Of a stretch of DNA of 64,000 bases, positions 38,274 through 58,899 are shown one piece after another. Source of the DNA: Thermodesulfovibrionia bacterium (GTDB lineage: Bacteria; Nitrospirota; Thermodesulfovibrionia; UBA6902). A model generated the notes under the pieces. The model searched no databases. It was given only the letters and a program-made list of their open reading frames with translations, and had not been told where the DNA came from. The first letter of the stretch is position 1; every line of letters starts with the position of its first letter. The stretch is taken from assembly GCA_020053105.1 (NCBI GenBank), contig JAGVNU010000084.1, positions 1 through 64,000 of the forward strand, in the 5' to 3' direction. A program made the position numbers and the translations under genes.

Positions 38274-38289
38274 TAAATAGAAACCAAGC

Positions 38290-38321
38290 AAGCGGCATTC
38301 CCACTTTTGCGGGAATGACAA
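38290..38321. repeat. ATTCCC-type dispersed repeat fragment
   Basis: cggcattcccacttttgcgggaatgac; inverted ATTCCC/GGGAAT arms. Confidence 0.6.
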
Positions 38322-38336
38322 TAAAAGGAGAACATT

Positions 38337-39404: not shown

Positions 39405-39426
39405 GGGCAATTCATGATGCCCCTAC
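39401..39426. repeat. Palindromic repeat, family A; contains the cobT stop codon
   Basis: gtaggggcaattcatgatgcccctac. Confidence 0.85.
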
Positions 39427-39449
39427 AGCCCATACAAATTTAGGTTAAT

Positions 39450-40235: not shown

Positions 40236-40243
40236 ACAGAATT

Positions 40244-40846: not shown

Positions 40847-40858
40847 CCTCGCCCTTAC
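40832..40858. repeat. Palindromic repeat, family A, spanning the cobC stop codon
   Basis: gtagtggcgaggtgacctcgcccttac. Confidence 0.8.
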
Positions 40859-40872
40859 ATTTAAATCAATTT

Positions 40873-42492: not shown

Positions 42493-42494
42493 AT

Positions 42495-43529
42495 ATGACG
42501 GAAGCAATTACATTGACAGCAGCTTATTTACTGGATATGGCTATCGGTGACCCGAAATGGCTTCCTCATCCTGTATGCGGGATCGGATGGGCGATTGAGA
42601 AAATGGAGAGGGTGTTGAGAGAGATGATGCGTATGACAGAATCGAGCAGGGACAAGGCGCGCCGTGCCCCTACTGTTGAAAAACTTGCGGGACTTGGTCT
42701 TGTCATCATTATCGTCAGCATGACATGCGGCATTTTCTATTTTATTAATCAGCTCCTCCTTACTTCCAACTTCTCACATTTCACTTCTTACTTAGCTATT
42801 ATCATCCTCGCCGTTCTGATCGCTACGACCATCGCGACACGCGAGCTGATTAAATCCGCACAGGCGGTGATTAACGAACTCAAGACCGGAGATTTGGAGA
42901 GGGCGCGGGGCAAGCTGGGAATCATCGTGGGAAGGGACACGCATTCTCTGGACCAGAAGGGAATACTGAAGGCAACTATAGAGACCCTTGCTGAAAATGC
43001 CTCGGACGGAATCATCGCGCCGCTCTTTTATTTTGCACTTGGAGGACTACCTCTTGCCATGGCTTATAAAGCGATAAACACGCTTGATTCAATGGTCGGT
43101 TATAAAAATGAAAAGTACAGAAACTTCGGCTGGGCCGCGGCCAGGCTTGATGACATCGCTAATTACATTCCCGCGAGGATAACAGGGATATTGATTGTTA
43201 TCGCGACTTTTTTATTAGGTATCAGTGGAAAACCAACTCCTGCCCCCACATCATCATTAAAGATAATGATGAGAGACGGCAGAAAGCATTCCAGTCCCAA
43301 CAGCGGGGTCCCGGAGGCGGCAATGGCAGGCGCATTGGGTGTGAGACTCGGCGGGCCATCTGTATATGGCGGAATAACAGTTGAGAAACCGTTTATCGGA
43401 GAGGAGCGGTCAGGAGTTGGAGATGAATATCTTAATGCCTCGGAAAACGCCCTATCTATTGTTAAAGTGACTTCCCTGCTTGGTTTGGAGCTTGCGCTGA
43501 TACTTCAATATTTGAGGACTGCCATATGA
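42495..43529 (+). CDS. cbiB: Adenosylcobinamide-phosphate synthase
   Basis: 'YLLDMAIGDPKWLPHPVCGIGWAI', 'NASDGIIAPLFYFALGGLPLAMAYKAINTLDSMVGYKNEKYRNFGWAAARLDDIANYIPAR'. Confidence 0.96.
   Translation: MTEAITLTAAYLLDMAIGDPKWLPHPVCGIGWAIEKMERVLREMMRMTESSRDKARRAPTVEKLAGLGLVIIIVSMTCGIFYFINQLLLTSNFSHFTSYLAIIILAVLIATTIATRELIKSAQAVINELKTGDLERARGKLGIIVGRDTHSLDQKGILKATIETLAENASDGIIAPLFYFALGGLPLAMAYKAINTLDSMVGYKNEKYRNFGWAAARLDDIANYIPARITGILIVIATFLLGISGKPTPAPTSSLKIMMRDGRKHSSPNSGVPEAAMAGALGVRLGGPSVYGGITVEKPFIGEERSGVGDEYLNASENALSIVKVTSLLGLELALILQYLRTAI
42646..42673. repeat. Palindromic repeat, family A, in frame in cbiB
   Basis: gcagggacaaggcgcgccgtgcccctac encoding SRDKARRAPT. Confidence 0.8.
42771..42798. 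repeat. Degenerate 7-bp-period repeat (family B), in frame in cbiB
   Basis: tacttcc aacttct cacattt cacttct. Confidence 0.55.
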
Positions 43530-44644
43530 TTAATGAAAAGTCGGCAGCAGTGAGTAGAGGCGTATTGCAATACGCCACTACAGAGCATGGCGGCAATATC
43601 TATAAAATAGCCGGGGAGCTTGGATTGCCTGAAGAGAAGATGATTGATTTCAGCGCGTCCATAAACCCTCTCGGTCTATCAAAGAAGGTGAAGGAGACAA
43701 TCAGAAAGGGTATGGATGGTTTGGGTAACTACCCTGATCCGGACACATCAATGCTGAGACAAAAGATAGCTGAACACATTGATATTGACCCCGCAACAAT
43801 ACTCTGCGGCAATGGAAGCACAGAACTCATCTATCTCATTCCAAGGGCGCTCAAACCGGAACAGGCCCTGGTCCCCGCTCCCACGTTTTCGGAATATGAG
43901 AGGGCATGCAAATTGTGCAGGGGCGAGGTGACCTCGCCTGTGACGCGTTATGAATTAAAAGAACAAAACAATTTCCAATTTCATATTGATTCATTTATCA
44001 GCGCCATGCAGGGATGTGAAATGGCGTTTTTGTGTAACCCGAACAATCCCACGGGAGCTATCCTGAAGAGGGAAGAGATATTGGAAATTGCTGAAGCAGC
44101 AGGAAGGCAGCGGTGTTACCTTGTTGTTGATGAAGCTTTTATTGATTTCACTCCCGAAGAGTCGGTCATACATGACGTCCGGGACAATCCACATCTTATA
44201 GTCCTGAGGTCAATGACAAAATTCCATGCATTGACAGGCCTCAGGATCGGATACGCGGTTTTTCATAAGGACCTTATAGGGCGAGTGCTGGAATTCAAGG
44301 AGCCGTGGACGGTCAATAACCTGGCCCAAGAGGCAGCGGTCACAGCGCTTGATGACAGGGAATATATTGAAAGGACATACAGGTTGATTGCCCGTGAAAA
44401 AAAGTATGTTGAGAAAAGCCTTGAGAAATGCGGGATCAGTTTCTTCCCGTCCGCAGCCAATTACTATCTGTTAAAGGTTGCGGATGCGGGTGGACAGGTG
44501 GTCCTGTTAAGGAACAAGGGCATACTCGTCAGGGACTGTTCAAACTTCAGGGGACTGAATAACTCATATATCAGGATTGCGGTGAAGTCACGCAAACATA
44601 ATAAGATACTGATGAAGGAGCTTTCGGAATTATGCGCGGTATAG
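43526..44644 (+). CDS. cobD: L-threonine-O-3-phosphate decarboxylase
   Basis: 'MIDFSASINPLGLSKKV', 'LCGNGSTELIYLIPRAL', 'CNPNNPTGAI'. Confidence 0.93.
   Translation: MINEKSAAVSRGVLQYATTEHGGNIYKIAGELGLPEEKMIDFSASINPLGLSKKVKETIRKGMDGLGNYPDPDTSMLRQKIAEHIDIDPATILCGNGSTELIYLIPRALKPEQALVPAPTFSEYERACKLCRGEVTSPVTRYELKEQNNFQFHIDSFISAMQGCEMAFLCNPNNPTGAILKREEILEIAEAAGRQRCYLVVDEAFIDFTPEESVIHDVRDNPHLIVLRSMTKFHALTGLRIGYAVFHKDLIGRVLEFKEPWTVNNLAQEAAVTALDDREYIERTYRLIAREKKYVEKSLEKCGISFFPSAANYYLLKVADAGGQVVLLRNKGILVRDCSNFRGLNNSYIRIAVKSRKHNKILMKELSELCAV
43554..43581. repeat. Palindromic repeat, family A, in frame in cobD
   Basis: gtagaggcgtattgcaatacgccactac encoding SRGVLQYATT. Confidence 0.9.
43917..43943. 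repeat. Palindromic repeat, family A, in frame in cobD
   Basis: gcaggggcgaggtgacctcgcctgtga encoding RGEVTSPV. Confidence 0.85.
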
Positions 44645-46026
44645 TCATTGCAGGCACACACAGCGGCTGCGGGAAGACAACGGTTACCCTCGGGATCCTT
44701 GCCGCGTTGAGAAAAAAGGGATATAAGGTGCAGCCGTTCAAGGCCGGCCCTGACTTTATCGACACAGGCCTTCACAAACTCATTACCGGCATGACATCAA
44801 GGAACCTCGATCTATGGATGTGCGGAAGGGATTATGTCACTGACTGTTTTTCACGGCATTCAGCAGATGCAGATATATCGGTAGTAGAAGGCGTCATGGG
44901 AATGTATGACGGCAATATCAGTACCGCTGATCTTGCAGCTTCGCTCGGTTTGCCGGTCATACTTGTGGTCGATGCGTATGGTATGGCGGAGAGCGCAGGG
45001 GCGGTGGTGAAAGGTTTTGTGGAATATGGAGAACGGAATATGGATGTCCTCCCTACCGTTGCCGGTGTCATCTTCAACCGAATTGCCTCTGACAGACATT
45101 ACCAGAGAGTCAAAGACAGTGTGCAGGACGTCCCTGTGATCGGGTATTTGCCGAGGGATATGGATTTTAATATTCCCCACAGACATCTCGGCCTAGTCGT
45201 AGCAGAGGAAAGCCCGATACAAGCGGAAGAGATCGATAAACTGGCTGACGCGGTTTTGAGACATATTGATATGGATTCGATAGTGCAAAAAAGTGGAAGT
45301 GCGCTAACTGCAGGGGCGAGGTTATCTCGCCCCTACGTGACATCCAGCATACGTATCGCTGTTGCCTATGACAAGGCGTTCTGCTTTTACTACGAAGACA
45401 ATCTTGATCTGTTAAGACAGGCAGGCGCTGAGATACTGACCTTCAGTCCTATTTCGGACAACTCGGTCCCGGCTGACGCTGACGCTCTTTATATCGGCGG
45501 AGGTTATCCGGAACTGCATGCGGAGAAGCTGTCCGCCAACAAACCGATGCTGGAGTCCATAAGAAAATTCTCAGATGCAGGCAAGCCGGGATATGCGGAA
45601 TGCGGGGGTTTTATGTACATGACTGAGGGCATATATGATTTTGACAATGTGCTCCATCCTATGGCCGGGGTGTTCCCTTTTAAGACCAGGATGAAAAATG
45701 GAAGGTCAAGCCTGGGATACAGGGAAGCGGCTCTAAAAGAGCGGTCAATCCTCGGGATTAAAGGGACTGCGGTCAGAGGCCATGAGTTCCATTATTCAGA
45801 AGTATTGGAGAGTAGGGGCGAGGTCATCCCGCCCTCGCATTGCCCCACGATCTATTCCGTTAAAGACGGTTCCGGGCTGGCCCTTGCGGATGAAGGATAT
45901 AGAATCAAAAACACGCTTGGCAGTTATATTCACATCCATTTCGGAAGTAATTTATCCATAGCAGACAGCATCATTGATTTCATAAAGGAGTGTCATGGAA
46001 AAGATCATTATTGCGGGACACGGTAG
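44632..46026 (+). CDS. cbiA: Cobyrinate a,c-diamide synthase
   Basis: 'GIVIAGTHSGCGKTTVTLGIL', 'VVEGVMGMYDG', 'ALYIGGGYPELHAEKLS'. Confidence 0.96.
   Translation: MRGIVIAGTHSGCGKTTVTLGILAALRKKGYKVQPFKAGPDFIDTGLHKLITGMTSRNLDLWMCGRDYVTDCFSRHSADADISVVEGVMGMYDGNISTADLAASLGLPVILVVDAYGMAESAGAVVKGFVEYGERNMDVLPTVAGVIFNRIASDRHYQRVKDSVQDVPVIGYLPRDMDFNIPHRHLGLVVAEESPIQAEEIDKLADAVLRHIDMDSIVQKSGSALTAGARLSRPYVTSSIRIAVAYDKAFCFYYEDNLDLLRQAGAEILTFSPISDNSVPADADALYIGGGYPELHAEKLSANKPMLESIRKFSDAGKPGYAECGGFMYMTEGIYDFDNVLHPMAGVFPFKTRMKNGRSSLGYREAALKERSILGIKGTAVRGHEFHYSEVLESRGEVIPPSHCPTIYSVKDGSGLALADEGYRIKNTLGSYIHIHFGSNLSIADSIIDFIKECHGKDHYCGTR
45310..45336. repeat. Palindromic repeat, family A, in frame in cbiA
   Basis: gcaggggcgaggttatctcgcccctac encoding AGARLSRPY. 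Confidence 0.88.
45812..45838. repeat. Palindromic repeat, family A, in frame in cbiA
   Basis: gtaggggcgaggtcatcccgccctcgc encoding SRGEVIPPS. Confidence 0.8.
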
Positions 46027-47011
46027 TCCCAAAAAAGAGGCCAATAACATTGAACAGGTGGCCGGGCTGCTGCATGGTAAGATCCATCCCGGATGCAGCG
46101 GTGACTGTGTAAGGGTCGCATACCTGCAGTTTGCCGAGCCGGACATAATGCAGGCTATTACTGACTGTGTGAAGGATGGCGCTGAAAAGATAATCATCCA
46201 TCCCTATTTTCTCAGCAGCGGAATGCATGTCACGACAGACATCCCGGGGATAATCGAAGAAGCGCGGGGGAAATATAACGACGTTGAATTTGTTTATACA
46301 GAGCCGCTCGGTATCCATAACAAGATGGCGGAGGTTGTCCTTGAAAGGATAAGCGCTTCCACCGGTCTTAAGCCCGAGGAAATTGAGAAGAGGAGTTTTG
46401 AGATTATTTCGGAAGAGGTTGACCTCAGCGATGTCCCGGAAGAAAGGCAGCCGATCGTGAAACGAGTCATACATACCACGGCTGATTTTGAATTTAAGGG
46501 CAGCCTTGCATTCCACCCCGACGCAGTGAGAGCCGGCATTGCTGCAATTAAATCAGGCAAAGACATTCTCGCCGATGTTGAAATGGTAAGGACAGGCATC
46601 AACAAAAAGCTCCTGGAGAAATGGGGAGGGAAGGTTCTTTGTAACATACAGGCCTCAGGAGTCAGAAGTCAGGGGTCAGAAGAAAAAACAAGGTCTGAAC
46701 TTGGTATAGAATCCGCATTAAAAGAAAACAATAACATCGGAATCATCGCAATCGGCAATGCGCCAACGGCGCTGTTGAAGACGATTGAGATTTTAAGTAA
46801 GGGCGTATTGCAATACGCCCCTACAGACACACCACCCCTTGTCATTGGAGTTCCTGTCGGTTTCGTAAAAGCACTGGAATCAAAGGCGCTGCTTGCTTCA
46901 CAGCCGTTCCCTTTTATCACAAATCTCAGCAGAAAGGGCGGCTCAACGGTTGCAGTGGCAATTGTGAATGCATTGCTGAAAATGGCGGAGGGAGGTGATG
47001 ATCAGAAGTAG
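45995..47011 (+). CDS. Fusion: sirohydrochlorin cobaltochelatase (CbiX) - precorrin-8X methylmutase (CbiC)
   Basis: N-term 'KIIIAGHGSPKKEANN...YFLSSGMHVTTDIPGIIEEA'; C-term 'RSFEIISEEVD...VKRVIHTTADFEF...DVEMVRTGINKK...NAPTALL...GVPVGFVKALESKALL'. Confidence 0.92.
   Translation: MEKIIIAGHGSPKKEANNIEQVAGLLHGKIHPGCSGDCVRVAYLQFAEPDIMQAITDCVKDGAEKIIIHPYFLSSGMHVTTDIPGIIEEARGKYNDVEFVYTEPLGIHNKMAEVVLERISASTGLKPEEIEKRSFEIISEEVDLSDVPEERQPIVKRVIHTTADFEFKGSLAFHPDAVRAGIAAIKSGKDILADVEMVRTGINKKLLEKWGGKVLCNIQASGVRSQGSEEKTRSELGIESALKENNNIGIIAIGNAPTALLKTIEILSKGVLQYAPTDTPPLVIGVPVGFVKALESKALLASQPFPFITNLSRKGGSTVAVAIVNALLKMAEGGDDQK
46653..46682. repeat. Degenerate 7-bp-period repeat (family B), in frame in cbiX-cbiC
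   Basis: cctcagg agtcaga agtcagg ggtcaga. Confidence 0.75.
46797..46824. repeat. Palindromic repeat, family A, in frame in cbiX-cbiC
   Basis: gtaagggcgtattgcaatacgcccctac encoding SKGVLQYAPT. Confidence 0.92.
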
Positions 47012-47027: not shown

Positions 47028-47041
47028 CAATTACAATTTAC

Positions 47042-47184
47042 GGAATGATGAAGTGGAAAGGGGTGTGAATCCCCTGCTGTCACGCAGCCGTAAAGGGAAC
47101 GAAAACCCGGAAAGCCACTGTGCCGAAGCGTTGGCATGGGAAGGCGGGTGAGTAGGCTGCCCTGAGCCGGAAGACCTCTCATTC
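47042..47184 (+). promoter_or_regulatory. Cobalamin riboswitch 2
   Basis: P1 'ggaatga'/'tcattcc'; 'aaaggggtgtgaatcccctgctgtcacgcagccgtaa', 'agccactg', 'gggaaggcgggtgagtagg', 'gagccggaagacct'. Confidence 0.95.
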
Positions 47185-47216
47185 CCAAAACCTCGATGAA
47201 AAGGAGAGAGAAGAAA

Positions 47217-47990
47217 ATGATTAAGAAAATCTTTACAATTATTGTAGTCGTATTATGGTATGGAGCGGCATTCGCTGCACATCCGCTTATAACAGATGAC
47301 ACAGGGACTCAGGGCGCCGGAAAGTTTCAGATTGAAATCAATGGGGAATATGGACATGAGGAAGAAGACGAACTCACAGAAGAGGTTACTGAACTGGCAA
47401 CGATATTCTCGTATGGAATAAACAATGACATAGATATCGTTCTCGGCATCCCGTATCAGTATATAAGGATAGAAGATTCGGAAGAGACGGTCGATGAGGA
47501 CGGACTTTCGGACATGTCCATTGAAACGAAATGGCGTTTTTATGAAAAGGACGGGTTGGGCTTTGCATTGAAGCCCGGTGTCGCGCTGCCCGCTGGTGAT
47601 GAAGGGAAAGGTCTCGGCAGCGGTAGGGCGTCTTACGGCCTTGTACTTATAACGACAAAAGAAGCAGCTCCTCTCACTTTTCATTTTAATCTCGGATATA
47701 CACGCAATGAATACAAACTTGAGGAAGACGATGAAGCGAATAGAAAAGACATCTGGCATCTGTCGCTTGCTTCCGAAATACAGGTTGTTGAAAATCTTAC
47801 GGCAGTTGCAAATATCGGGACGGAGAGGAATTCCGACAAAGAATGGAATACAAACCCAACCTTTGTCCTCGGCGGATTGATTTATTATGTCTCGGAGAAC
47901 TTTGACATTAACATTGGCGTCAAAGGCGGACTGAATAAACCCGAAACTGACTATACAATCCTTGCCGGAATGACGGGGAGGTTTAAATGA
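47217..47990 (+). CDS. Outer-membrane beta-barrel-like protein (Phenol_MetA_deg/transporter-like)
   Basis: Signal peptide 'MIKKIFTIIVVVLWYGAAFA|AHPLITDDTGTQGAGKFQIEINGEYG' with alternating beta pattern; between riboswitch and cbiM. Start 47217 rather than 47196. Confidence 0.7.
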   Translation: MIKKIFTIIVVVLWYGAAFAAHPLITDDTGTQGAGKFQIEINGEYGHEEEDELTEEVTELATIFSYGINNDIDIVLGIPYQYIRIEDSEETVDEDGLSDMSIETKWRFYEKDGLGFALKPGVALPAGDEGKGLGSGRASYGLVLITTKEAAPLTFHFNLGYTRNEYKLEEDDEANRKDIWHLSLASEIQVVENLTAVANIGTERNSDKEWNTNPTFVLGGLIYYVSENFDINIGVKGGLNKPETDYTILAGMTGRFK

Positions 47991-48754
47991 AAATTCAAAA
48001 TCCAAAATTCAAATTTATTGTTTTAACGCTGTTCACTGTTCACTGTTCACTATTCACCGCATCTGACGCGCATGCCATGCACATCTCGGAAGGCATATTG
48101 CCATTCAACTGGGCGGCGCTGTGGTTTCTTGTCGCTTTACCATTTGTTGCATACGGATTAAGGAGGCTCAAAATCCTTTCAAAGACCGATCTGTCGATCA
48201 AGCCTCTGGTAGGGTTAATGGCTGCGATAGTGTTTGTAATTTCCTGCATGCCCATACCTGTGCCGACTGCGGGAACATGCTCTCATCCTGCAGGAACAGG
48301 AATATCAGGGATACTTGTCGGACCGACGATAAGCATACTTGTTACAGCAGTAGCGTTGCTCATTCAGGCGCTCTTTCTTGCACACGGCGGATTAAGTACA
48401 TGGGGGGCGGATATAGTATCAATGGGTGTGGCAGGATCGTTTGCAGGATACCTGACATTCCGGGCGTTGCGCTCGGTAAAGGTAAACATGACAGTAGCTG
48501 CTTTCATGGCAGGTGTCCTCGCAGACTGGGCAACATATCTGACAACCTCCGTTGAACTTGCATCGGGGATAAGAGGCGATTCGCCGTTTCTTCCGCTTTT
48601 CTATAAGATACTCATTGCCTTTATTCCAACGCAGCTTCCATTAGGGCTACTGGAAGGAGCAATGACCTCGGGCATGGTTGTCCTGCTTTACAAAAAGAGA
48701 CCTGATTTGCTTGTGAAGATGCGTGTGTTAAAGGCAGAGGAGGCAATATCATGA
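47987..48754 (+). CDS. cbiM: Cobalt ECF transporter substrate-specific component CbiM
   Basis: 'HAMHISEGILPFNWAALWFLVALPFVAYG...PTAGTCSHPAGTGISGILVGPTISILVTAVALLIQALFLAHGGLSTWGADIVSMGVAGSF'. Confidence 0.96.
   Translation: MKIQNPKFKFIVLTLFTVHCSLFTASDAHAMHISEGILPFNWAALWFLVALPFVAYGLRRLKILSKTDLSIKPLVGLMAAIVFVISCMPIPVPTAGTCSHPAGTGISGILVGPTISILVTAVALLIQALFLAHGGLSTWGADIVSMGVAGSFAGYLTFRALRSVKVNMTVAAFMAGVLADWATYLTTSVELASGIRGDSPFLPLFYKILIAFIPTQLPLGLLEGAMTSGMVVLLYKKRPDLLVKMRVLKAEEAIS
47990..48016. repeat. 7-bp-period repeat (family B) at the cbiM start
   Basis: aaaattc aaaatcc aaaattc aaattt. Confidence 0.8.
48031..48058. repeat. 7-bp tandem repeat (family B) in the cbiM signal peptide
   Basis: gttcact gttcact gttcact attcacc. 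Confidence 0.92.
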
Positions 48755-49080
48755 AAGATCAAAAATCAGAAATCAAAAATCAATATTATGGAATGATTTT
48801 TTTAATCATATTATTACTCTCTACCTGCTGCCCTCTACTCGCCGCTGCTTCGGAGAAGTGGGGTGGTGTTGACGAATCAGTCGTGGAGAAATATGCGAAA
48901 GAACAGGGCAGAGAGGCAAGGGAACCATTAATCAACACAGACCAGGGAGACCTGCTTCTCTTTGTTTTCCTTCTTGCAGGCGCTGTTGGAGGGTTTATCG
49001 GAGGATACTACTGGAGAACTCTGACTGAAAGCAGAGCAGGGAATCCCGGAGAGTCCGGACACAGAGCACATACAGAATGA
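48751..49080 (+). CDS. CbiN-like small membrane protein
   Basis: N-terminal hydrophobic segment, 'LLLFVFLLAGAVGGFIGGYYW'; located between cbiM and cbiQ. Confidence 0.7.
   Translation: MKDQKSEIKNQYYGMIFLIILLLSTCCPLLAAASEKWGGVDESVVEKYAKEQGREAREPLINTDQGDLLLFVFLLAGAVGGFIGGYYWRTLTESRAGNPGESGHRAHTE
48754..48781. repeat. 7-bp-period repeat (family B) at the N-terminus of the CbiN-like protein
   Basis: aaagatc aaaaatc agaaatc aaaaatc. Confidence 0.8.
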
Positions 49081-49094
49081 GTTAAGAAAAGTAA

Positions 49095-49140
49095 AATCCC
49101 CCCAAATCCCTCGTTACCAATGGGGGACTTGGGGGGGATT
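49095..49140. repeat. Imperfect inverted repeat (CCCCCC/GGGGGG arms)
   Basis: aatccccccaaatccctcgttaccaatgggggacttgggggggatt between the CbiN-like gene and cbiQ. Confidence 0.8.
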
Positions 49141-49155
49141 AAAAGGCTTAAGATT

Positions 49156-49908
49156 ATGGAAGTATTTTCGGAACATTTTAAAACAGGACATTTCCTTTCT
49201 AAAGTAGATGCAAGGGCAAAACTGATTGTCACCCTTGCGCTCCTGGGAATGGTTTTAAGTTATAAAGGGACAATGTTTCCATTGGTTATAGCCGCTATAT
49301 CCATTGTCCTTTGCCTGAAGATGCACATACCTGTGCGAATCCTGGCTCTGAGATTAGCGCAGCCTGTTCTTATGGCATTTGCGGTCCTGTTATTGAAGCT
49401 TTTCTTTTCAGGAGAGGACATCCTGTTTTCATTTAATCTCTTCGGGATGGAATTGGACGGGCATAAAGACGGACTTATTGAAGGCCTGCTGATAGCCTCC
49501 AGGATATTAGGAGGAGTTTCTCTTTTAGTGGCAGTTGGGTTTGCAACACCTTTTATTGAATTTATGGCAGCGCTTTCGTGGCTGAGGATCCCTAAGTCCT
49601 TTATCGAAATAACGATGTTTGCATACAGATATCTCTTTATGTTTCTTGAGGACGCAACTACTATTTACAGCGCCCAGAAAAACCGTCTCGGTTATTCGGG
49701 AATTAGAAAAGGATTAAGTTCTTTCGGTGTTCTGACAGGGTCGCTTGTCTTGCGCGGTTTTGAGCAGAGTCAGAAGACGGCTGACGCGATGATTCAAAGG
49801 GGCTACACGGGAGACCTGCCTTTGCTTAAGGGGAAGCCCTTGAGGACCATAGAACTTGCTGTTGCATTTTTAATAGTGGCCTTTGGAGGCGCTGTATGGA
49901 TGATCTGA
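49156..49908 (+). CDS. cbiQ: Cobalt ECF transporter T component CbiQ
   Basis: 'LSKVDARAKLIVTLALLGMVLSY...FAYRYLFMFLEDATTIYSAQKNRLGYSG...GSLVLRGFEQSQKTADAMIQRGY'; ATG 49156 avoids starting inside the inverted repeat. Confidence 0.95.
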   Translation: MEVFSEHFKTGHFLSKVDARAKLIVTLALLGMVLSYKGTMFPLVIAAISIVLCLKMHIPVRILALRLAQPVLMAFAVLLLKLFFSGEDILFSFNLFGMELDGHKDGLIEGLLIASRILGGVSLLVAVGFATPFIEFMAALSWLRIPKSFIEITMFAYRYLFMFLEDATTIYSAQKNRLGYSGIRKGLSSFGVLTGSLVLRGFEQSQKTADAMIQRGYTGDLPLLKGKPLRTIELAVAFLIVAFGGAVWMI

Positions 49909-50750
49909 TGTACAGCGTCAGACATGTTTCATATAAATACCCTGATGGCACGCATGCCCTGTCTGATATAAACCTTGAGGTCAAGAAAGGCGAATTCATC
50001 GGCCTGCTGGGGGCCAACGGGTCAGGCAAGACTACCCTGCTCAGGGCCATGGACAAGCTCCTTAAAGGTGTTGAAGGCAGCGTGCATCTGGACGGCGTCG
50101 ATATCAGGACACTCTCACCAAAGGAGATATATAAAAAAGTCGGGCTGGTGTTTCAGAACCCGGATGACCAGTTGTTTGCGCCGACACTTTTTGAAGACGT
50201 TGCCTTTGGGCCGACGAATATGGGATTTGCAGCAAATGAAGTTGAAAAAAGGGTCATGAGCGCACTTAATGAGGTTGAGCTGGCAGGCCTTGAAAAAAAA
50301 TCCGTCCACAACCTGAGCTTCGGCCAGAGGAAAAGGGCCTGCATTGCCGGACTCCTGGCTATGGGACATGAAATGCTTCTGCTTGACGAACCAACCGCAG
50401 GTCTTGACCCTATGGGCGAATACAAAATGATGGGCCTGCTTCAGAAGCTCAACAGGGAGAAGCAGGTGACGATTGTCATGGCTACCCACAGCGTTGACCT
50501 GGTGCCTGTATTTCTTGACCGTCTTTATATCCTGAGCAGGGGAAAGATTACAAGGGGCGGGGCCCCGGAAGAGGTCTTTAACGCGCCTGAAGATATGGCC
50601 CATATCAAGCTCCGGCTTCCCCATATAGCTGAATTGATTTACAGGCTTAAACATGAAGACAAGGTGGACTTTGAACGAATACCGCTCACCATTGGTGAGG
50701 CAAGACGGGAGATACTGAGGTCTCTCGAAACTTCATTAAAGAGGAGGTGA
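49896..50750 (+). CDS. cbiO: Cobalt ECF transporter ATPase CbiO
   Basis: 'GLLGANGSGKTTLLRAMDKLLKG', 'LSFGQRKRACIAGLLAMGHEMLLLDEPTAGLDPMG'. Confidence 0.97.
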   Translation: MDDLMYSVRHVSYKYPDGTHALSDINLEVKKGEFIGLLGANGSGKTTLLRAMDKLLKGVEGSVHLDGVDIRTLSPKEIYKKVGLVFQNPDDQLFAPTLFEDVAFGPTNMGFAANEVEKRVMSALNEVELAGLEKKSVHNLSFGQRKRACIAGLLAMGHEMLLLDEPTAGLDPMGEYKMMGLLQKLNREKQVTIVMATHSVDLVPVFLDRLYILSRGKITRGGAPEEVFNAPEDMAHIKLRLPHIAELIYRLKHEDKVDFERIPLTIGEARREILRSLETSLKRR

Positions 50751-50754
50751 ACTC

Positions 50755-50892
50755 TTGAAAAAGGCAACAAAGGCTGAGAAGAAAAATACGAAAACGGCTA
50801 TTTCCTATCACATGAAATGCGCAACGACAGCTAACGGGCTTACACATTTTGTGATGTATGGTGATATTCCGAAAAAGAAGATGCCTCTGTAA
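50755..50892 (+). CDS. Putative RiPP-type precursor peptide (CbpA-like) for the adjacent radical SAM enzyme
   Basis: SD 'gaggaggtga' then TTG at 50755: MKKATKAEKKNTKTAISYHMKCATTANGLTHFVMYGDIPKKKMPL*; Lys-rich leader, core with one Cys; 5 nt after the cbiO stop; not in the ORF track. Confidence 0.75.
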   Translation: MKKATKAEKKNTKTAISYHMKCATTANGLTHFVMYGDIPKKKMPL

Positions 50893-50902
50893 AATATTTA
50901 TT

Positions 50903-50930
50903 GTAGGGGCGTATCGCAATACGCCCCTAC
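50903..50930. repeat. Palindromic repeat, family A (intergenic)
   Basis: gtaggggcgtatcgcaatacgcccctac. Confidence 0.93.
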
Positions 50931-50996
50931 GTCATTCCCGTGCAAACGGGAATCCAGAAATAAAAACTGGATTCCTGCTTTCGCAGGAAAGACAAA
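50931..50996. repeat. ATTCCC-type dispersed repeat (dRS3-like arms), abutting the palindrome
   Basis: gtcattcccgtgcaaacgggaatccag...ctggattcctgctttcgcaggaaagac. Confidence 0.85.
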
Positions 50997-51041
50997 GAGA
51001 GCAGCAATAATCATATTTACGCAAAAAGGAGATTGATAATC

Positions 51042-52403
51042 ATGAGCAAAGGATGCAAATGCGGTTGTTCACAAGGAGCTGTTGAAAGGGGCCTTTCCTT
51101 TTCCAATGTCGATGACAACTGGAAACTGGCGCTGGATGCCGACAATATATTCTGGAGTATTTTGCCGAGGCAAAACGGCGGCTTCATGCTCCCCCAGGAC
51201 ATGATCGACCTTTACAAAAAAGAAATGAAGCACCTTGATGATGAGATGCATAATTTCAGGTTCAATGAACCGTTGAACTGTGTCTACATTGATCCGACGG
51301 ACCGGTGCAATGCCAACTGCCCTTACTGCTACATCCCTTCAATGATAAGGCAGCAGGGGACCCAGATGACCGCTGAACAGCTTGATATCGTGCTAGGAAA
51401 AATCGTGGACCATTTCAAAGGTATGAAAAAGAAACCAGTGATCGTATTCCACGCTGCCGAGCCGCTGCTTGTAAAGGACATTCTCTTTGGGGCCATTAAG
51501 AAGTATCACAAAAAGATGCTCTTCGGTATCCAGACAAATGCCCTTTTACTTGAAAAGGAGGACGTTGATTTCATAAAGAAGTACAGCGTGGGTATCGGCA
51601 TTTCACTTGATGCCTCAACTGCGGCAGTCAATAATCTTTCACGTGTATCGAGAAAGGGCGAGGGGAATTTCAAGAAGGCTGTGCAGGCACTGGACTGGTT
51701 TGCGGGGTATGAGGGACTGAATGTGATCTGTACTGTTAATAAATACAACGTGGACAAACTCTCGGAACTTGTTACATTCCTTCATTCAAAGAAGGTGCCG
51801 ATGGTCCTGCTCAATCCTGTCCGTCTTACACAGAAACGTTCTGAACAGGTGAAACCCGATGATAAGGTATATGCTCAAAACCTGATAAAGGCCGTTGACA
51901 CTGCAATGGCGCTCACAAAGAAGACCGAACGCCAGATAGTGGTCGGCAACTTCGCCAACGTATTGCTGGCGATCATATCACCGACAGCAAGGCGCATGAT
52001 GTGCGACATCTCTCCATGCGGAGGCGGCAGGACATTCCTCACCGTCACAGCCGACGGCGCAATGGTGCCGTGCGGGGAATTCATCGGCTTTAAGGAATTC
52101 TCAGGCGGAAACATATTCAAAACATCTATCGCAAAGGCAATGGAGTCAAAGCCCTTTAAGGCGATCAGGGCGAGGATGGTAGAGAATATCGATGAATGCA
52201 ATACCTGTGACTTCAGGCACATATGCGGCTCGCCGTGCCCGGCAGAGATGCATGCACGCGGCAATATAAACAAGAAGGCCGTGTTCTGCGATTTCTATAA
52301 GGAGATCATTGTGCATGCCTTTAAGATGATAGCTGAGGATAACGTCAAGTACCTTCTGCGGGATGACTCGCTCGATCAGATGCAGATGGAATATAAATAT
52401 TAA
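51042..52403 (+). CDS. Radical SAM/SPASM peptide-modifying enzyme (CbpB-like)
   Basis: CX3CX2C 'DRCNANCPYCYIP'; C-terminal SPASM-like 'MMCDISPCGGGRTFLTVTADGAMVPCGEF...CNTCDFRHICGSPCPAEM...VFCDFY'; N-term 'MSKGCKCGC'. Confidence 0.92.
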   Translation: MSKGCKCGCSQGAVERGLSFSNVDDNWKLALDADNIFWSILPRQNGGFMLPQDMIDLYKKEMKHLDDEMHNFRFNEPLNCVYIDPTDRCNANCPYCYIPSMIRQQGTQMTAEQLDIVLGKIVDHFKGMKKKPVIVFHAAEPLLVKDILFGAIKKYHKKMLFGIQTNALLLEKEDVDFIKKYSVGIGISLDASTAAVNNLSRVSRKGEGNFKKAVQALDWFAGYEGLNVICTVNKYNVDKLSELVTFLHSKKVPMVLLNPVRLTQKRSEQVKPDDKVYAQNLIKAVDTAMALTKKTERQIVVGNFANVLLAIISPTARRMMCDISPCGGGRTFLTVTADGAMVPCGEFIGFKEFSGGNIFKTSIAKAMESKPFKAIRARMVENIDECNTCDFRHICGSPCPAEMHARGNINKKAVFCDFYKEIIVHAFKMIAEDNVKYLLRDDSLDQMQMEYKY

Positions 52404-52446: not shown

Positions 52447-53634
52447 ATGAAAAGGCATTTAAGGTCAGGATATACAACAGGAGCATGTGCGGCTGCAGCT
52501 GCAAAGGCGGCGGTGTTGATGCTGCTTGATGAAGTATGTCGGCAATCAAATGCAGGGGCAATTTACCCTGAAGGGCACAGGCATGAATTGCCCCTACAGG
52601 TCGAATATGTTGAGGTCCCGTTTCCGGACGGCAGCAGGGTGAAATTTAAAATTCATAAGTCGGAACTCATAACGCTTAACTCTCAACTTACTGCACGTGC
52701 ATCTGTTGTCAAGGATGCAGGAGACGATCCTGATGTTACGAATAGGGCGGAGATTGTGGCAGAAGCAAAGATGGTGCAGGCAACAGATGTAGGGTCAATT
52801 CATGAATTGCCCCTACGGATAGACATCAAAGGCGGCACGGGCGTCGGCACAGTTACCAAGCCCGGCCTTCCCGTTCCAATCGGTGAGCCTGCGATTAATC
52901 CCGTGCCGAGGAAGATGATTAAAGAAGCTGTATTGGAAGTCGTAGGGGCGAGGTCATCTCGCCCTGACATCAGCACAATTGAAATCACCATCTCCGTCCC
53001 AAACGGAGAGGAGCTTGCTAAAAAAACATTGAACTACCGACTCGGCATCATCGGAGGGATTTCAATTCTCGGCACCACAGGCATTGTCAAACCCGTTTCA
53101 ACAGAGGCGTGGACAGCGACCATTGCTTCATCCATGGACGTTGCAAAGGCGATGGGACATAAAGAGATAGCAGTATCTGCAGGACGTTCGTCGGAAAAAG
53201 CGCATATGAAGAAATTCAACTTGCCCGAAGAAGTATACGTTCTCATGGGAGATTACCTTGAATATTCTCTGAAAGAGGCAAAGAGGCACGGCTTTAAGAA
53301 GATCCACCTTTGTGCTCAGTGGGCCAAGATGGTTAAAATAGCAATGGCAACGCCGCAGACGCATGTAAGGTTCGGGGCGATTGATATAAAGAAGGCGGTG
53401 GACTTCTTAATAGAATTAAATCCGGAACTGCGGAATTCGGAATTCGGAATTCGGAATTTCAATACGGCAAGAGAAATATTTGAACTCGTTAAATCCGCAA
53501 TCCGCAATCCGCAATCCGCATTTTCGGATGTCTGTAATTCTGCTAAGACATATGCTGAAGGAATAGCCGAAGGCATTCCCGTTACCACATATCTTGTATC
53601 ATATGAAGGGGAGATAATTGCATCAAGTGAATAA
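52447..53634 (+). CDS. cbiD: Cobalt-precorrin-5B C1-methyltransferase
   Basis: 'LRSGYTTGACAAAAAKAAV', 'GGTGVGTVTKPGLPVPIGEPAINPVPRKMI', 'GTTGIVKPVSTEAW'. Confidence 0.97.
   Translation: MKRHLRSGYTTGACAAAAAKAAVLMLLDEVCRQSNAGAIYPEGHRHELPLQVEYVEVPFPDGSRVKFKIHKSELITLNSQLTARASVVKDAGDDPDVTNRAEIVAEAKMVQATDVGSIHELPLRIDIKGGTGVGTVTKPGLPVPIGEPAINPVPRKMIKEAVLEVVGARSSRPDISTIEITISVPNGEELAKKTLNYRLGIIGGISILGTTGIVKPVSTEAWTATIASSMDVAKAMGHKEIAVSAGRSSEKAHMKKFNLPEEVYVLMGDYLEYSLKEAKRHGFKKIHLCAQWAKMVKIAMATPQTHVRFGAIDIKKAVDFLIELNPELRNSEFGIRNFNTAREIFELVKSAIRNPQSAFSDVCNSAKTYAEGIAEGIPVTTYLVSYEGEIIASSE
52552..52597. repeat. Expanded family A palindrome (extra central sequence), in frame in cbiD
   Basis: gcaggggcaattt-accctgaagggcacaggcatg-aattgcccctac encoding AGAIYPEGHRHELPL. 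Confidence 0.8.
52662..52696. repeat. Weak 7-bp-period repeat (family B), in frame in cbiD
   Basis: ggaactc ataacgc ttaactc tcaactt. Confidence 0.45.
52789..52816. repeat. Palindromic repeat, family A, in frame in cbiD
   Basis: gtagggtcaattcatgaattgcccctac encoding VGSIHELPL. Confidence 0.92.
52942..52968. repeat. Palindromic repeat, family A, in frame in cbiD
   Basis: gtaggggcgaggtcatctcgccctgac encoding VGARSSRPD. Confidence 0.92.
53424..53460. repeat. 7-bp tandem repeat (family B), in frame in cbiD
   Basis: ggaattc x3 with flanking partial copies, encoding RNSEFGIRNF. Confidence 0.9.
53492..53520. repeat. 7-bp tandem repeat (family B), in frame in cbiD
   Basis: aatccgc x4 encoding SAIRNPQSAF. 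Confidence 0.92.
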
Positions 53635-54877
53635 GGTCCAAATTATAGGAATAGGCTTCAGGCCTCTCGACATGAGGGCCGGCAGGGCGCTTCTGAATTC
53701 AGATGTTGTCCTTGTAAATGACCGTCTTCTCGATGTCTTTAAAAATTATGCGGAATACGGTGAGGTGAAGGACCGGATCATTGCCCACGGCAGTGTCTAT
53801 GAAATGCTCGATTATATTGCGGATAATTATCAGACTAAGAACATAGCGCTCCTGGCTGCCGGAGACCCGATGTTCTTCGGCATAGGCAGACTGGTCATAG
53901 AGAGACTTGGAAAAGACGCAGCAGAAATATACCCGGACCTTTCAAGCATCCAGGTCGCCTTCTCCAGAATAAGAGAGACCTCCAATAATGCGCTCCTGAT
54001 AAGCCTGCACGGAGGCCCTGATCCTGAAAAGAGGAGAAAGCTTGAGTATGAACTTACGGACTTGCCGGGGCTTCTAATGCGGCATAGCAAAATTGCTATT
54101 CTTACCGACAAGGTCAACAGTCCTGAGGCGATTGCGCACATGCTATGCAAGGGCGAGATGACCTCGCCCCTGCGGATGTATGTTTGTGAGAAGCTTGGGT
54201 ATGATGACGAGAAGGTCACTGAAGGGACGCCAGAAGAGATTTCAAAAATGTCATTCGGGCATCCGAATGTTGTGATTATCGTAGGGGCAATTCATGAATT
54301 GCCCCTACACGTCGTATTCGGGCTTAAAGAAGACGAGATTCAGCATTCAAGAGGTTTGATCACAAAAGACGAAGTCCGGGCTGTTACTATCCATAAATTA
54401 AGATTGCCGAAGACGGGAGTGCTCTGGGACATCGGTGCAGGGTCTGGTTCGGTGTCAATTGAAGCCGCGATCATCTGCCCTGATTTGAAAATATATGCAA
54501 TTGAAAAAGATGAAGACCAGATGCTCAATATCAGGGAGAATAAAAGCAGGTATAAGACAGGGAATATCAAAATTGTCAGCGGTCATGCCCCTGACGCACT
54601 CATACAACTGCCTGCGCCGGACAGGGTCTTCATTGGCGGCAGCAGCGGCAGGTTAAATGATATCGCGGATTATATTAATGACCGGATGCCTTCAGGAATT
54701 GTAGTTATAAACGCAGCGACAATCGAGACATTGAATGAAGCGGTCCAGTCTCTTGAGAGAAATGGTTTCAGGGTTGATGTCTCAGAGATCTCAGTTTCAA
54801 GATCGAAGACAATTGGCGGTAAAAGGCATATGAGCGCACTGAACCCGATATTTATCGTTACAGGAGAAAAGGTGTAA
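53627..54877 (+). CDS. Cobalt-precorrin-7 C5-/C15-methyltransferase fusion (CbiE-CbiT/CobL)
   Basis: N-term 'VQIIGIGFRPLDMRAGRALLNSDVVLVNDRLL'; C-term 'TKDEVRAVTIHKLRLPKTGVLWDIGAGSGSVSIEAAI'. Confidence 0.95.
   Translation: MNKVQIIGIGFRPLDMRAGRALLNSDVVLVNDRLLDVFKNYAEYGEVKDRIIAHGSVYEMLDYIADNYQTKNIALLAAGDPMFFGIGRLVIERLGKDAAEIYPDLSSIQVAFSRIRETSNNALLISLHGGPDPEKRRKLEYELTDLPGLLMRHSKIAILTDKVNSPEAIAHMLCKGEMTSPLRMYVCEKLGYDDEKVTEGTPEEISKMSFGHPNVVIIVGAIHELPLHVVFGLKEDEIQHSRGLITKDEVRAVTIHKLRLPKTGVLWDIGAGSGSVSIEAAIICPDLKIYAIEKDEDQMLNIRENKSRYKTGNIKIVSGHAPDALIQLPAPDRVFIGGSSGRLNDIADYINDRMPSGIVVINAATIETLNEAVQSLERNGFRVDVSEISVSRSKTIGGKRHMSALNPIFIVTGEKV
54147..54173. repeat. Palindromic repeat, family A, in frame in cbiE-T
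   Basis: gcaagggcgagatgacctcgcccctgc encoding KGEMTSPL. Confidence 0.85.
54281..54308. repeat. Perfect 28-bp palindrome, family A, in frame in cbiE-T
   Basis: gtaggggcaattcatgaattgcccctac encoding VGAIHELPL. Confidence 0.97.
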
Positions 54878-55602
54878 TGACAGGCAGACTGAGCGTCATC
54901 GGTATCGGCCCCGGGGACCCGGAGTTGTTGACCCTGAAGGCCGTGAGGGTCATTAAAGAATCCTCTGTGCTTTGTGTCCCCAAAGGCCGTGAGGAAGGGA
55001 GCAGCCTTGCCTTGTCGATAGTTGAAAAGGCGGTGGATCTTGACGGGAAGGAGATTATCGAGGCGCATTTTCCGATGAGAAAAACTATGGGGCAAGGAGC
55101 AGATCATACAGATTTGAGTCTCGATGATAAATGGAATCAAATAGCTGAAACAATCCTGACTCAGCTTAAGAAAGGGAAGGACGTTGCCTTTCTCACCCTC
55201 GGCGACCCGACTATCTACAGCACGTTTTTTTATCTATACGATAAACTGCTTGAACTCCGGCCTGACCTGAGCATCCAGATAATCCCCGGGGTTTCTTCCA
55301 TAAATGCATCAGCTGCCAGGGCGAATATTTCCCTGGGGCTGGGGAATGAGAGGATCGCCATTCTCCCGGCAAATTACCTGGACAACCTGAAGACGACTCT
55401 GGAGATGTTTGATACTGTGGTGCTCATGAAGGTGAACAAGGTGCTGGATGAAATAATAAAGCTGCTTGGGGAAATGGACCTTATCGGCAGCGCTGTCTGC
55501 GTTTCAAGGGCCGGGATGGAGGATGAAATAATATACCGGGACATCACAAAGATAAAACAGGAAGGCTTAAATTATTTTTCAGTGGTGATTGTCAGAAAAT
55601 GA
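54877..55602 (+). CDS. cbiL: Precorrin-2/cobalt-factor II C20-methyltransferase
   Basis: 'SVIGIGPGDPELLTLKAVRVIKES', 'TLGDPTIYSTFFYLYDKL'. Confidence 0.95.
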   Translation: MTGRLSVIGIGPGDPELLTLKAVRVIKESSVLCVPKGREEGSSLALSIVEKAVDLDGKEIIEAHFPMRKTMGQGADHTDLSLDDKWNQIAETILTQLKKGKDVAFLTLGDPTIYSTFFYLYDKLLELRPDLSIQIIPGVSSINASAARANISLGLGNERIAILPANYLDNLKTTLEMFDTVVLMKVNKVLDEIIKLLGEMDLIGSAVCVSRAGMEDEIIYRDITKIKQEGLNYFSVVIVRK

Positions 55603-56396
55603 CTCAGGATGACCTCATATATTTAAAGAGCTGGTTTGCGGATTACACCAAGGCTTATTATTCCGCTGATGCCGAAGACCAGAAGAACATACTGCTGAAG
55701 GTCGAGCATACTGATAATGTTTGCAGAAATATCGTTGCGATAGCCGAAGGCTCGTCCCTTGCCGGTAATCAGATAAAGCTGGCTGAGGCGGTGGCGCTTT
55801 TCCATGATGTCGGGAGGTTCCGGCAATACACCAGGTACAAAACATTCAGGGACGCTATTTCGCTCAATCACGGGCTGCTGGGATCAAAGATACTGATTGA
55901 GGAAAAGGTCCTTCAGCGGCTTCCCGTTGATGAACAGCAATTGATAATTCAGTCCGTAAAGTTTCACAATGCATTTGCAATACCGGCCACACTGGACAGC
56001 GATGTGGTTTTATTATTGAAATTAATCCGTGACGCGGACAAGGTGGATATATTCCGCGTCTTCATCGAGTATTATGAAAGCCCTGTAGAAAAAAGGGCGT
56101 CCGCAACCGCTTTCAGGATGCCTGATACCCCTGAATATTCAGAGGTCATGCTTTCATGTATTATGAATAAACATGTTGCTTCATATTCAAATATCAGGAC
56201 CGAAAATGATTTTAAATTGATGAAACTTTCCTGGGTGTATGACATGCATTTTAAAGAATCTGTCAGGCTTGTCCAGGAACGAAATTATTTAGACAGCATC
56301 ATTAACAAGCTTCCTCAAACTGAAGATATTCTGGCTGCAGCGGAAGTCTTGAGGGAATACATATCTCAGAGGTTAAACAGTGACGAAAAAAAATAA
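55599..56396 (+). CDS. HD-domain phosphohydrolase-like protein
   Basis: 'KVEHTDNVCRNIVAIAEG...LAEAVALFHDVGRFRQYTRY...NHGLLGSKIL...LLLKLIRDADKVDIFRV'. Confidence 0.85.
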   Translation: MTQDDLIYLKSWFADYTKAYYSADAEDQKNILLKVEHTDNVCRNIVAIAEGSSLAGNQIKLAEAVALFHDVGRFRQYTRYKTFRDAISLNHGLLGSKILIEEKVLQRLPVDEQQLIIQSVKFHNAFAIPATLDSDVVLLLKLIRDADKVDIFRVFIEYYESPVEKRASATAFRMPDTPEYSEVMLSCIMNKHVASYSNIRTENDFKLMKLSWVYDMHFKESVRLVQERNYLDSIINKLPQTEDILAAAEVLREYISQRLNSDEKK

Positions 56397-57144
56397 ATTA
56401 TATTTTGTAGGCGCAGGCGCGGGTGATCCTGAGTTGATTACGGTCAAAGGCAGGAAACTGCTTGATGCCGCGGATGTTGTGATTTATGCCGGGAGCCTGG
56501 TGAACCCTGCCCTGCTTGCAGGAACCAGGGCCGAGATATATGATTCTGCAGGCATGACGCTGGATGAGACAATCAAAGTGATTCAAAATAATTTCAAACA
56601 GGGGAAACTCATTGTAAGGCTGCACACTGGAGATCCGTCATTTTACAGCGCGATCTCAGAGCAGATAGAAAGACTCCGTGAAATGGATATCCCTTACGAG
56701 GTTGTCCCCGGGGTCTCGTCCGCTATGGCAGGGGCTGCGCTTCTGGGGCAGGAGCTTACAATTCCTGAAATAAGCCAGACAGTCATCTTTACGCGGATTG
56801 AGGGAAGAACTCCCGTGCCGGACAGAGAGAAGTTGTCTGCGCTGGCAAAGCACAGGGCATCGATGGTGATTTTTTTAAGCGCGGGCATGATTGAAAAAGT
56901 CAGAGATGAACTGCTTGAAGGTTATCCTGAAGATACCCCTGTTGTTGTAATTGAGAGGGTATCATGGCCGGAGGAGCGGATTGTCCGGGGAACATTAAAG
57001 GACATTTCAGACAAGGTCAAAGAAGCCGGGATCAAAAAGACCGCGTTGATTTATGTCGGCGAAGCATTAAGGGCATCTGAAGAAAAGCTGGGCAAGGAAT
57101 CGAAGCTTTATCATAAGGACTTTAAACATGAGTACAGAAAGTAA
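56380..57144 (+). CDS. cbiF: Cobalt-precorrin-4 C11-methyltransferase
   Basis: 'YFVGAGAGDPELITVKGRKLLDAADVVIYAGSLVNPALL', 'RLHTGDPSFYSAISEQI'. Confidence 0.96.
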   Translation: MTKKNKLYFVGAGAGDPELITVKGRKLLDAADVVIYAGSLVNPALLAGTRAEIYDSAGMTLDETIKVIQNNFKQGKLIVRLHTGDPSFYSAISEQIERLREMDIPYEVVPGVSSAMAGAALLGQELTIPEISQTVIFTRIEGRTPVPDREKLSALAKHRASMVIFLSAGMIEKVRDELLEGYPEDTPVVVIERVSWPEERIVRGTLKDISDKVKEAGIKKTALIYVGEALRASEEKLGKESKLYHKDFKHEYRK

Positions 57145-58165
57145 GTCGAAAGTTAAAAAAGGCGGGAAGACGACTATCTTCTATATCACAGGCAACGCCT
57201 TCAAACTTGCTCAGAAACTGAAAGGACTTCATCCTGATGCGCAGATTGTTAAATTCACGTCCGCAGGGGCAATTCATGAATTCCCCCTGCAATGGCGGGA
57301 ATCCAGAAACATCATCTTTATCATGGCAACAGGAATTGTCGTGAGGACAATCGCGCCGCTGCTTAAAGATAAAAGGACAGATCCTGCGGTAGTCGTCCTT
57401 GATGAAAAGGGACGGCATGCCATCAGTCTGCTGAGCGGACATCTAGGAGGGGCGAACAAGCTGGCCGCAGAAATAGCTGACTTCCTGGGTGCACAGGCAG
57501 TGATCACAACTGCTTCGGACGTGCAGGGCAGGACAGCGCTGGATATCTGGGCGGATGAGAGAGGTCTTTATGTAGAAGATTATGAGAGGCTGAAACGTCT
57601 GAGCGCAAAGATCGTAAACGGTAAACGCGTAAAGGTGTATACAGGCAATTCCATTGTCCTGCCGGGAGTGCCCGACGAATTTAACATCGTTGAATCATCA
57701 AATATAGCTGAAATAGTTATTTCTGAAGCGCTGTATAAAAGAAAGACCCTTTACATGAGACCCCGGAACCTTTTTGCGGGGATAGGCTGCAACAGAGGCA
57801 CGACAAGAGATGAAATCCAGAATGAATTCACATCACTCCTCAAAGAAAACAGGCTGTCCGCTCATTCCATAGCAGGCATTGCCTCCATTGATCTTAAAAA
57901 AGATGAAGAGGGGCTGCTTGAGTTCGCTGATGATAATGGTTTGCCAATCCGGTTTTTCCCCGGAGACGCGCTTAATGCAGTGGCGGATGAGCTGGGCATC
58001 AAACAATCAAAACAGGTCATGGCCGCGACCGGTGCAGTTGCCGTATCCGAGCCAGCTGCAGTATTGGCAGCAAGACAGGCGTCTGACAGGGTCGATATAA
58101 TTATTCCAAAAGTAAAAAGGGGGAATGTAACATTATCAATCGCAAAGGCAAAGTTAACGTTGTAG
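57128..58165 (+). CDS. cbiG: Cobalt-precorrin-5A hydrolase
   Basis: 'IIFIMATGIVVRTIAPLLKDKRTDPAVVVLDEKGRHAISLLSGHLGGANKLA', 'FAGIGCNRGTTRDEI'. Confidence 0.96.
   Translation: MSTESKSKVKKGGKTTIFYITGNAFKLAQKLKGLHPDAQIVKFTSAGAIHEFPLQWRESRNIIFIMATGIVVRTIAPLLKDKRTDPAVVVLDEKGRHAISLLSGHLGGANKLAAEIADFLGAQAVITTASDVQGRTALDIWADERGLYVEDYERLKRLSAKIVNGKRVKVYTGNSIVLPGVPDEFNIVESSNIAEIVISEALYKRKTLYMRPRNLFAGIGCNRGTTRDEIQNEFTSLLKENRLSAHSIAGIASIDLKKDEEGLLEFADDNGLPIRFFPGDALNAVADELGIKQSKQVMAATGAVAVSEPAAVLAARQASDRVDIIIPKVKRGNVTLSIAKAKLTL
57263..57290. repeat. Palindromic repeat, family A, in frame in cbiG
   Basis: gcaggggcaattcatgaattccccctgc encoding AGAIHEFPL, followed by an ATTCCC-type half 'ggcgggaatccagaaa'. 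Confidence 0.9.
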
Positions 58166-58899
58166 GGATAGGACCCGGCAGTCCGGACCATATTACTCCT
58201 GCTGCAAAAAAGGCAATCGAAGACGCTGATATTATAGTCGGCTATAAAACATATCTCGATCTGATACGGGACCTGATCAGGGACAAAGAGGTAATGTCTT
58301 CAGGCATGCGGCAGGAAGTGGACAGGTGTGCGAAGGCTGTGGAACTTGCGCGGGATGGGAAAACAGTCGCTGTTATCTGCAGCGGCGATCCCGGGATTTA
58401 TGCAATGGCGGGACTGGTGTTTGAGGTATTAAGCCGTCAGCAATCAGCGGTCAGCGGTCAGCCGGATGTTGAAATCATCCCCGGCATCCCGGCGCTTTCC
58501 GCATGCGCGGCCAGGCTTGGGGCTCCGCTTATGCATGATTTTGCCGCAGTCAGCCTGAGCGACCTGCTTACCCCATGGGGATTAATTGAGAAGCGGCTTG
58601 AAGCAGCTGCCTCCGCTGACTTTGTAATAGTCATTTATAACCCCAAGAGTAAGGGCAGGCAGGACCATATTAAAAAGGCGAGGGACATTATTTTAAATCA
58701 CAGGAGTCCGGATACGCCTGTCGGGATTGTAAAAGGCGCTACAAGAGAGAATGAAACAGTGGCCATAACCGATCTGCAAAACATGCTCGATAATGAAATA
58801 GACATGCAGAGCACGGTCATCATCGGCAACTCGAACACGTTCACGTGGGAAGGCCGGATGGTGACGCCAAGGGGATACTCGAAGAAGTATAAAATTTAA
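58132..58899 (+). CDS. cbiH: Cobalt-precorrin-3B C17-methyltransferase (apparent ATT/ATC start)
   Basis: 'INRKGKVNVVGIGPGSPDHITPAAKKAIEDADIIVGYKTY...SGDPGIYAMAGLVFEV'; no ATG/GTG/TTG between the in-frame stop at 58084 and the SAM-binding motif. Confidence 0.9.
   Translation: MINRKGKVNVVGIGPGSPDHITPAAKKAIEDADIIVGYKTYLDLIRDLIRDKEVMSSGMRQEVDRCAKAVELARDGKTVAVICSGDPGIYAMAGLVFEVLSRQQSAVSGQPDVEIIPGIPALSACAARLGAPLMHDFAAVSLSDLLTPWGLIEKRLEAAASADFVIVIYNPKSKGRQDHIKKARDIILNHRSPDTPVGIVKGATRENETVAITDLQNMLDNEIDMQSTVIIGNSNTFTWEGRMVTPRGYSKKYKI
58433..58463. repeat. 7-bp tandem repeat (family B), in frame in cbiH
   Basis: ccgtcag caatcag cggtcag cggtcag. Confidence 0.9.

Follow-up and report, generated by a model that had tools for sequence, protein, structure and literature searches.

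The short open reading frame between cbiO and a radical SAM gene in the analyzed window (the whole stretch of 64,000 nucleotides) is a real gene, conserved far beyond chance and under strong purifying selection on its core. The encoded peptide is almost certainly the partner of CbpB, the radical SAM/SPASM enzyme encoded downstream. As judged from sequence comparisons, it represents a divergent CbpA branch that is overlooked by the current CbpA model and is common to Nitrospirota, Nitrospinota, and Omnitrophota. A role of the pair in corrinoid metabolism is likely. With somewhat less assurance, we favor the view that divergent CbpA is modified by CbpB, remains intracellular, and functions at a step that de novo corrinoid synthesis and salvage have in common, not in cobalt uptake. 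The coordinates of the features are collected in the table below.

Table. Features of the cbpAB locus and its surroundings in the window.
Feature	Coordinates	Strand	Evidence or remark
cobU, cobT, cobS, cobC, cobQ, cbiB, cobD, cbiA, cbiX-cbiC	37740..47011	+	rest of the corrinoid cluster
Cobalamin riboswitch heading the porin-CbiMNQO-cbpA-cbpB run	47029..47197	+	RF00174, 76 bits
PF13557 outer-membrane protein, cbiM, cbiN-like, cbiQ, cbiO (cobalt ECF transporter)	47196..50750	+	upstream of cbpA
Shine-Dalgarno (SD) sequence AGGAGG of cbpA, directly before the cbiO stop	50742..50747	+	direct reading; 43/54 loci match over 6 nt or more
cbpA, divergent "TANGL" type, precursor peptide	50755..50892	+	45 aa; kept in 54/59 loci, pN/pS 0.09
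Conserved core SYHMKCATTANGLTHFVMYGDIPKKKMPL, residues 17–45 of CbpA	50803..50889	+	alignment
cbpA-cbpB spacer	50893..51041	+	strong stem-loop at 50903–50930
cbpB, radical SAM/SPASM enzyme	51042..52403	+	TIGR04163 502.7 bits, alignment, AlphaFold2 model
cbiD, cbiET, cbiL, HD-domain protein, cbiF, cbiG, cbiH	52447..58899	+	some by homology and position only

A preliminary description of this DNA had proposed the frame, and its coordinates, TTG start codon, sequence, and overlap of the SD sequence with the cbiO stop were all borne out exactly. The AGGAGG lies 7 nt 5′ of the TTG and is followed directly by the TGA of cbiO (50748–50750). A scan of one-per-species genomes with the radical SAM protein encoded next to the frame yielded 61 loci, and in 59 loci, the window included, the same strand just upstream of the radical SAM gene was searched for peptides matching C-x5-GL[TS]H[FY]. 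The precursor reading had been made to depend on the conservation of the ISYxxxC...GLTHFVMY core, and this conservation was clear, since a core-bearing peptide precedes the radical SAM gene in 54 of the 59 loci, mostly at a spacing of 80–430 bp. Among the five exceptions, L008, L033, and L050 have less than 300 bp of upstream contig and L047 contains an N gap; L012 is the sole one lacking such an explanation. Comparison of 49 core sequences gave a mean pS of 0.81 and a mean pN of 0.075, with variation of 0.08, 0.03, and 0.39 at the first, second, and third codon positions. Thus, the retention of the core, the pN/pS ratio, and the codon-position pattern indicated a translated, constrained peptide. 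When a script picked the start with the best SD match in each of the 54 loci, the start codons were TTG (30), ATG (22), and GTG (2). Residues C22, T25, N27, G28, L29, H31, F32, V33, Y35, G36, and D37 are invariant in an alignment of 17 sequences. The N-terminal part is variable and Lys-rich, whereas the core, with its Cys, His, and aromatic residues, is near-invariant across Nitrospirota, Nitrospinota, and Omnitrophota, which suits a conserved physiological role.

The proposed pairing of the peptide with a radical SAM enzyme also held: the CbpB protein of the window passes the cut-off of NCBIfam TIGR04163 (375 bits), the Pfam Radical_SAM and SPASM matches are above their cut-offs, and the peptide, homologous to CbpA, is the predicted partner of this CbpB-type SPASM enzyme. 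In 46 homologues, the cysteines of the CxxxCxxC motif (C89, C93, and C96), the seven SPASM cysteines (C326, C344, C386, C389, C395, C399, and C416), and an extra cysteine, C321, are invariant. The AlphaFold2 model (pLDDT 87.7, pTM 0.88) has three strands (19–22, 27–32, and 37–42) and a helix (52–75) at its N-terminus, and its best structural matches were CteB (5why/5wgg), anSME (4k36–4k39), ChlB (9gm3), and TigE (8vpo).

The identification of the peptide as CbpA was confirmed in part. The search with the CbpA model TIGR04164 (cut-off 35 bits), suggested as a check in the preliminary description, gave no match to the window peptide at E ≤ 10; a scan of the whole genome returned only chance-level matches, none of them at cbpA, and neither NCBIfam nor Pfam gave the peptide a match above chance. 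True CbpA peptides of Planctomycetota and other Nitrospirota score 46–49 bits on this model and archaeal ones 28–32 bits, compared with at most about 15 bits (top 14.8) for window-type relatives from Omnitrophota or Magnetobacteriaceae. Homology was nevertheless supported by profile comparison, in which hhalign aligned the window type with canonical and archaeal CbpA over 28 columns (probability 95.9%, E 5.6e-9). In addition, the tree of 46 CbpB proteins, rooted by midpoint only, comprised three groups matching the three CbpA types (window, canonical, and archaeal), and the window-type group formed a separate branch with support of 89/91. Thus, the peptide is a divergent CbpA rather than a textbook member. 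It is likewise encoded upstream of cbpB and has the C-x5-G-L-[STA]-H-[FY] pattern of true CbpA; however, it carries TANGLTHFVMYGD and a conserved tail ending in MPL, where true CbpA has GTGLSHYILMDKK. CbpA and CbpB exist as database models (NCBIfam), and the present comparison reveals a large branch missed by the CbpA model. No paper naming TIGR04163 or TIGR04164 and no study of the pair was found in the open-access literature, and no biochemical evidence on the pair was found in the searchable literature.

The 90 bases 3′ of the cbpA stop were strongly structured (z below −2) in 87% of the 54 loci, with a mean z of −4.9, compared with 30% and a mean z of −1.3 for 54 control spacers from the same loci (Mann-Whitney p 3e-11). 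The hairpin differs in sequence between genomes. Its position between cbpA and cbpB suggests that it may raise the precursor over the enzyme. In the window, this hairpin belongs to a dispersed palindromic repeat (arms GTAGGGGC) that is present in 21 copies against 1 expected by chance (e.g., at 30404, 36550, 42201, 42666, 45329, 45812, 46817, 52590, 52809, 52942, 54281, and 61908). Many copies lie within reading frames, encoding, e.g., GAIHELPL or GARSSRP in corrinoid enzymes, and recall the in-gene palindromic elements of other genomes.

In the window, cbpAB is embedded in a corrinoid cluster, and the cobalamin riboswitch ahead of its operon, which also precedes the operon in seven relatives (L006, L016, L018, L025, L029, L034, and L035), points to probable expression of the pair under B12 shortage. 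A second cobalamin riboswitch (37447–37647, 92.6 bits) heads the cobU-cobT-cobS run. The gene for the PF13557 protein (47196–47990), which may form a channel for cobalt or corrinoids in the outer membrane, begins right at the end of the first riboswitch and precedes CbiMNQO; it was also observed in about ten relatives. The cbiN position (48751–49080) gave a weak CbiN match (E 0.014), and a frame between cbiM and cbiQ is kept in relatives. The HD-domain protein (55599–56396) was rejected as a specific third component, as it occurs in 32 of 37 genomes of the family, some of them without CbpB.

The surroundings were compared across 43 distinct loci, each with 3 kb or more of sequence on either side, after four duplicate records had been removed by hand; genes other than those of the scanned proteins were named by tblastn comparison with the proteins of the window. 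Corrinoid genes surrounded cbpAB in 39 of these loci. A cobalt transporter was nearby in 26, and in 13 the corrinoid genes occurred without one. The transporter is therefore not a constant companion, and 10 of the 38 CbpB genomes had no CbiM match. These results indicate that cbpAB is associated with the corrinoid locus in its entirety. No link of cbpAB to corrinoid genes was seen in archaea or in part of the Planctomycetota and Nitrospirota; among such genomes, the three checked for cbiD (one planctomycetal and two archaeal) all contained it. Neither a maturation protease nor an exporter was recognized among the named neighbors, which do not include every neighboring frame. Several unusual arrangements were also observed. 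In the reduced cluster of G380, cbpB is directly followed by what appears to be a single 373-aa frame for both a CbiX-like chelatase and a CbiE-like methylase (L090:8064–9185), with the HD protein next. In a genome nearly without corrin-ring genes, cbiX-like, cbpA, cbpB, cbiE, and HD-domain genes stand in a row (L087:5763–9297), and G264 has two CbpB copies (L088 and L089), each ending a cbiL-cbiF-cbiG-cbiH run.

Four CbpB genomes that are 96–100% complete appear to be salvage-only for B12 precursors, without corrin-ring synthesis. Neither CbiD nor CbiM was found in G332, G164, and G213, and G248 had no CbiD and a weak CbiM match (85 bits). The four contain 1–2 tetrapyrrole methylases, compared with 5–9 matches in G000, G142, G252, and G264. 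Beside their cbpAB lie late corrinoid genes, either several of cobT, cobS, cobC, cobQ, cbiB, and cobD (G332, G164, and G248) or cobD and cobU (G213). Genomes of this salvage type include both window-type and canonical CbpA.

At the phylum level, CbpB was detected in 38 of 396 genomes, and both cbiD (27/38 vs. 115/358 of the others) and CbiM (28/38 vs. 88/358, Fisher p 3e-9) were more frequent in the genomes with CbpB, the counts not being corrected for phylogeny. CbpB was absent from 115 of the 142 cbiD-bearing genomes; thus, B12 synthesis does not generally require it. It was present in 3 of 249 genomes of a Planctomycetota-centred phylum sample and in 1 of 250 of an archaeal-centred one. Since most of the genomes are metagenome assemblies, absences are not firm.

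In 13 distinct loci (L027, L029–L038, L048, and L061), the gene for the corrinoid adenosyltransferase, cobA, starts within the last codons of cbpB with an 8-nt overlap (ATGCGTAA or similar); the L048 copy is broken and that of L027 is cut by the contig end. Those of these loci that were placed on the tree fall largely in one clade, so that the overlap may reflect one event. In the planctomycetal locus L098, canonical cbpAB lies in a full B12 cluster, preceded by cobA and followed by CbiMNQO. The possibility that CbpAB stands in for a missing adenosyltransferase was rejected, as 15 of the 16 tested genomes with CbpB have CobA (PF02572). A PduO-type adenosyltransferase was found in none of these 16, and CobA gave no match in the window genome (83% complete).

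We infer that the CbpA precursor would be made in excess over CbpB, which would modify its Cys/aromatic core, perhaps by a cross-link; the modified peptide would remain inside the cell and act at a late corrinoid step common to de novo synthesis and salvage. Instead of cobalt uptake, the most plausible step would be the handling, reduction, or adenosylation of the corrinoid, and adenosylation with the preceding cobalt reduction, or corrinoid carrying, would fit best. In a more specific and still doubtful form of this proposal, modified CbpA would be a ribosomal peptide cofactor or carrier for corrinoids, acting, e.g., in cob(II)/cob(I) reduction or in holding the corrinoid for CobA. If true, this would add a novel type of component to the B12 pathway, one retained even in anaerobes restricted to salvage. 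The likely role of the pair lies in the assembly or salvage of corrinoids instead of cobalt transport, and a nameless pair becomes a testable component of the B12 pathway in Nitrospirota, Nitrospinota, Omnitrophota, Planctomycetota, and archaea.

The cobalt-transport or metallophore role offered in the preliminary description was not supported as stated, because cbpAB accompanies corrinoid genes where CbiMNQO is absent and overlaps cobA in one clade. In its fuller form, modified CbpA would bind Co(II) via Cys22 and His31 and feed CbiMNQO or the cobaltochelatase CbiX. The conservation of both residues, the adjoining CbiMNQO genes in the 26 loci, the phylogenetically uncorrected correlation of CbpB with CbiM, and the CbiX-like chelatase genes adjoining cbpAB in L086 and L087 are consistent with such a chaperone. 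However, a metallophore serving CbiMNQO accounts for the window and fails for the salvage genomes: 13 loci keep the pair with corrinoid genes and no transporter, and the CbpB genomes without a CbiM match include G164, G213, and G332, which apparently lack ring synthesis. We therefore consider this role unlikely. The riboswitch heading the operon in the window and several relatives, together with the almost invariant core, would also agree with a status peptide that monitors or signals the supply of corrinoid or cobalt and regulates the enzymes of the cluster. This is less probable still, as the riboswitch already senses B12 and no gene beside cbpAB was recognized as a dedicated receptor or regulator.

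A precursor with a radical SAM/SPASM maturase generally resembles sactipeptide and ranthipeptide systems, which brings to mind a secreted antimicrobial or quorum-type RiPP. The almost invariant core across three phyla, the metabolic operon setting, and the failure to recognize an exporter, protease, or immunity gene make this very improbable. It is just as hard to credit that CbpA works unmodified as a small protein while CbpB acts on another substrate. Modification of CbpA is a prediction, but the close pairing of cbpA and cbpB across phyla, the matching CbpA and CbpB tree groups, and a SPASM architecture of the kind usual in peptide maturases all argue against this.

Among known systems, PQQ and mycofactocin are peptide-derived cofactors that likewise combine a short conserved precursor, a radical SAM/SPASM enzyme, and a metabolic locus, whereas no protease or further maturation enzyme was recognized at CbpAB. 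The fold of CbpB is close to that of anSME (4k36–4k39, TM 0.82–0.84 by target), whose protein substrate is modified at a Cys or Ser; however, no sulfatase was recognized in the CbpAB locus, and inspection of CbpA by eye revealed no sulfatase motif. The closest match in the PDB in both sequence and fold was CteB (5wgg/5why), the enzyme that makes thioethers on peptide Cys in the SCIFF system of ranthipeptide/sactipeptide type. Both systems combine a Cys in the peptide core with a SPASM enzyme, and the invariant Cys22 is suggestive of a putative thioether of this type in CbpA. In contrast to SCIFF-type peptides with their many Cys, CbpA has one in its core; a complete RRE, the domain for leader binding, is not clearly discernible in the three strands and one helix at the N-terminus of the CbpB model, and CbpAB, unlike SCIFF/CteB, is linked to corrinoid genes.
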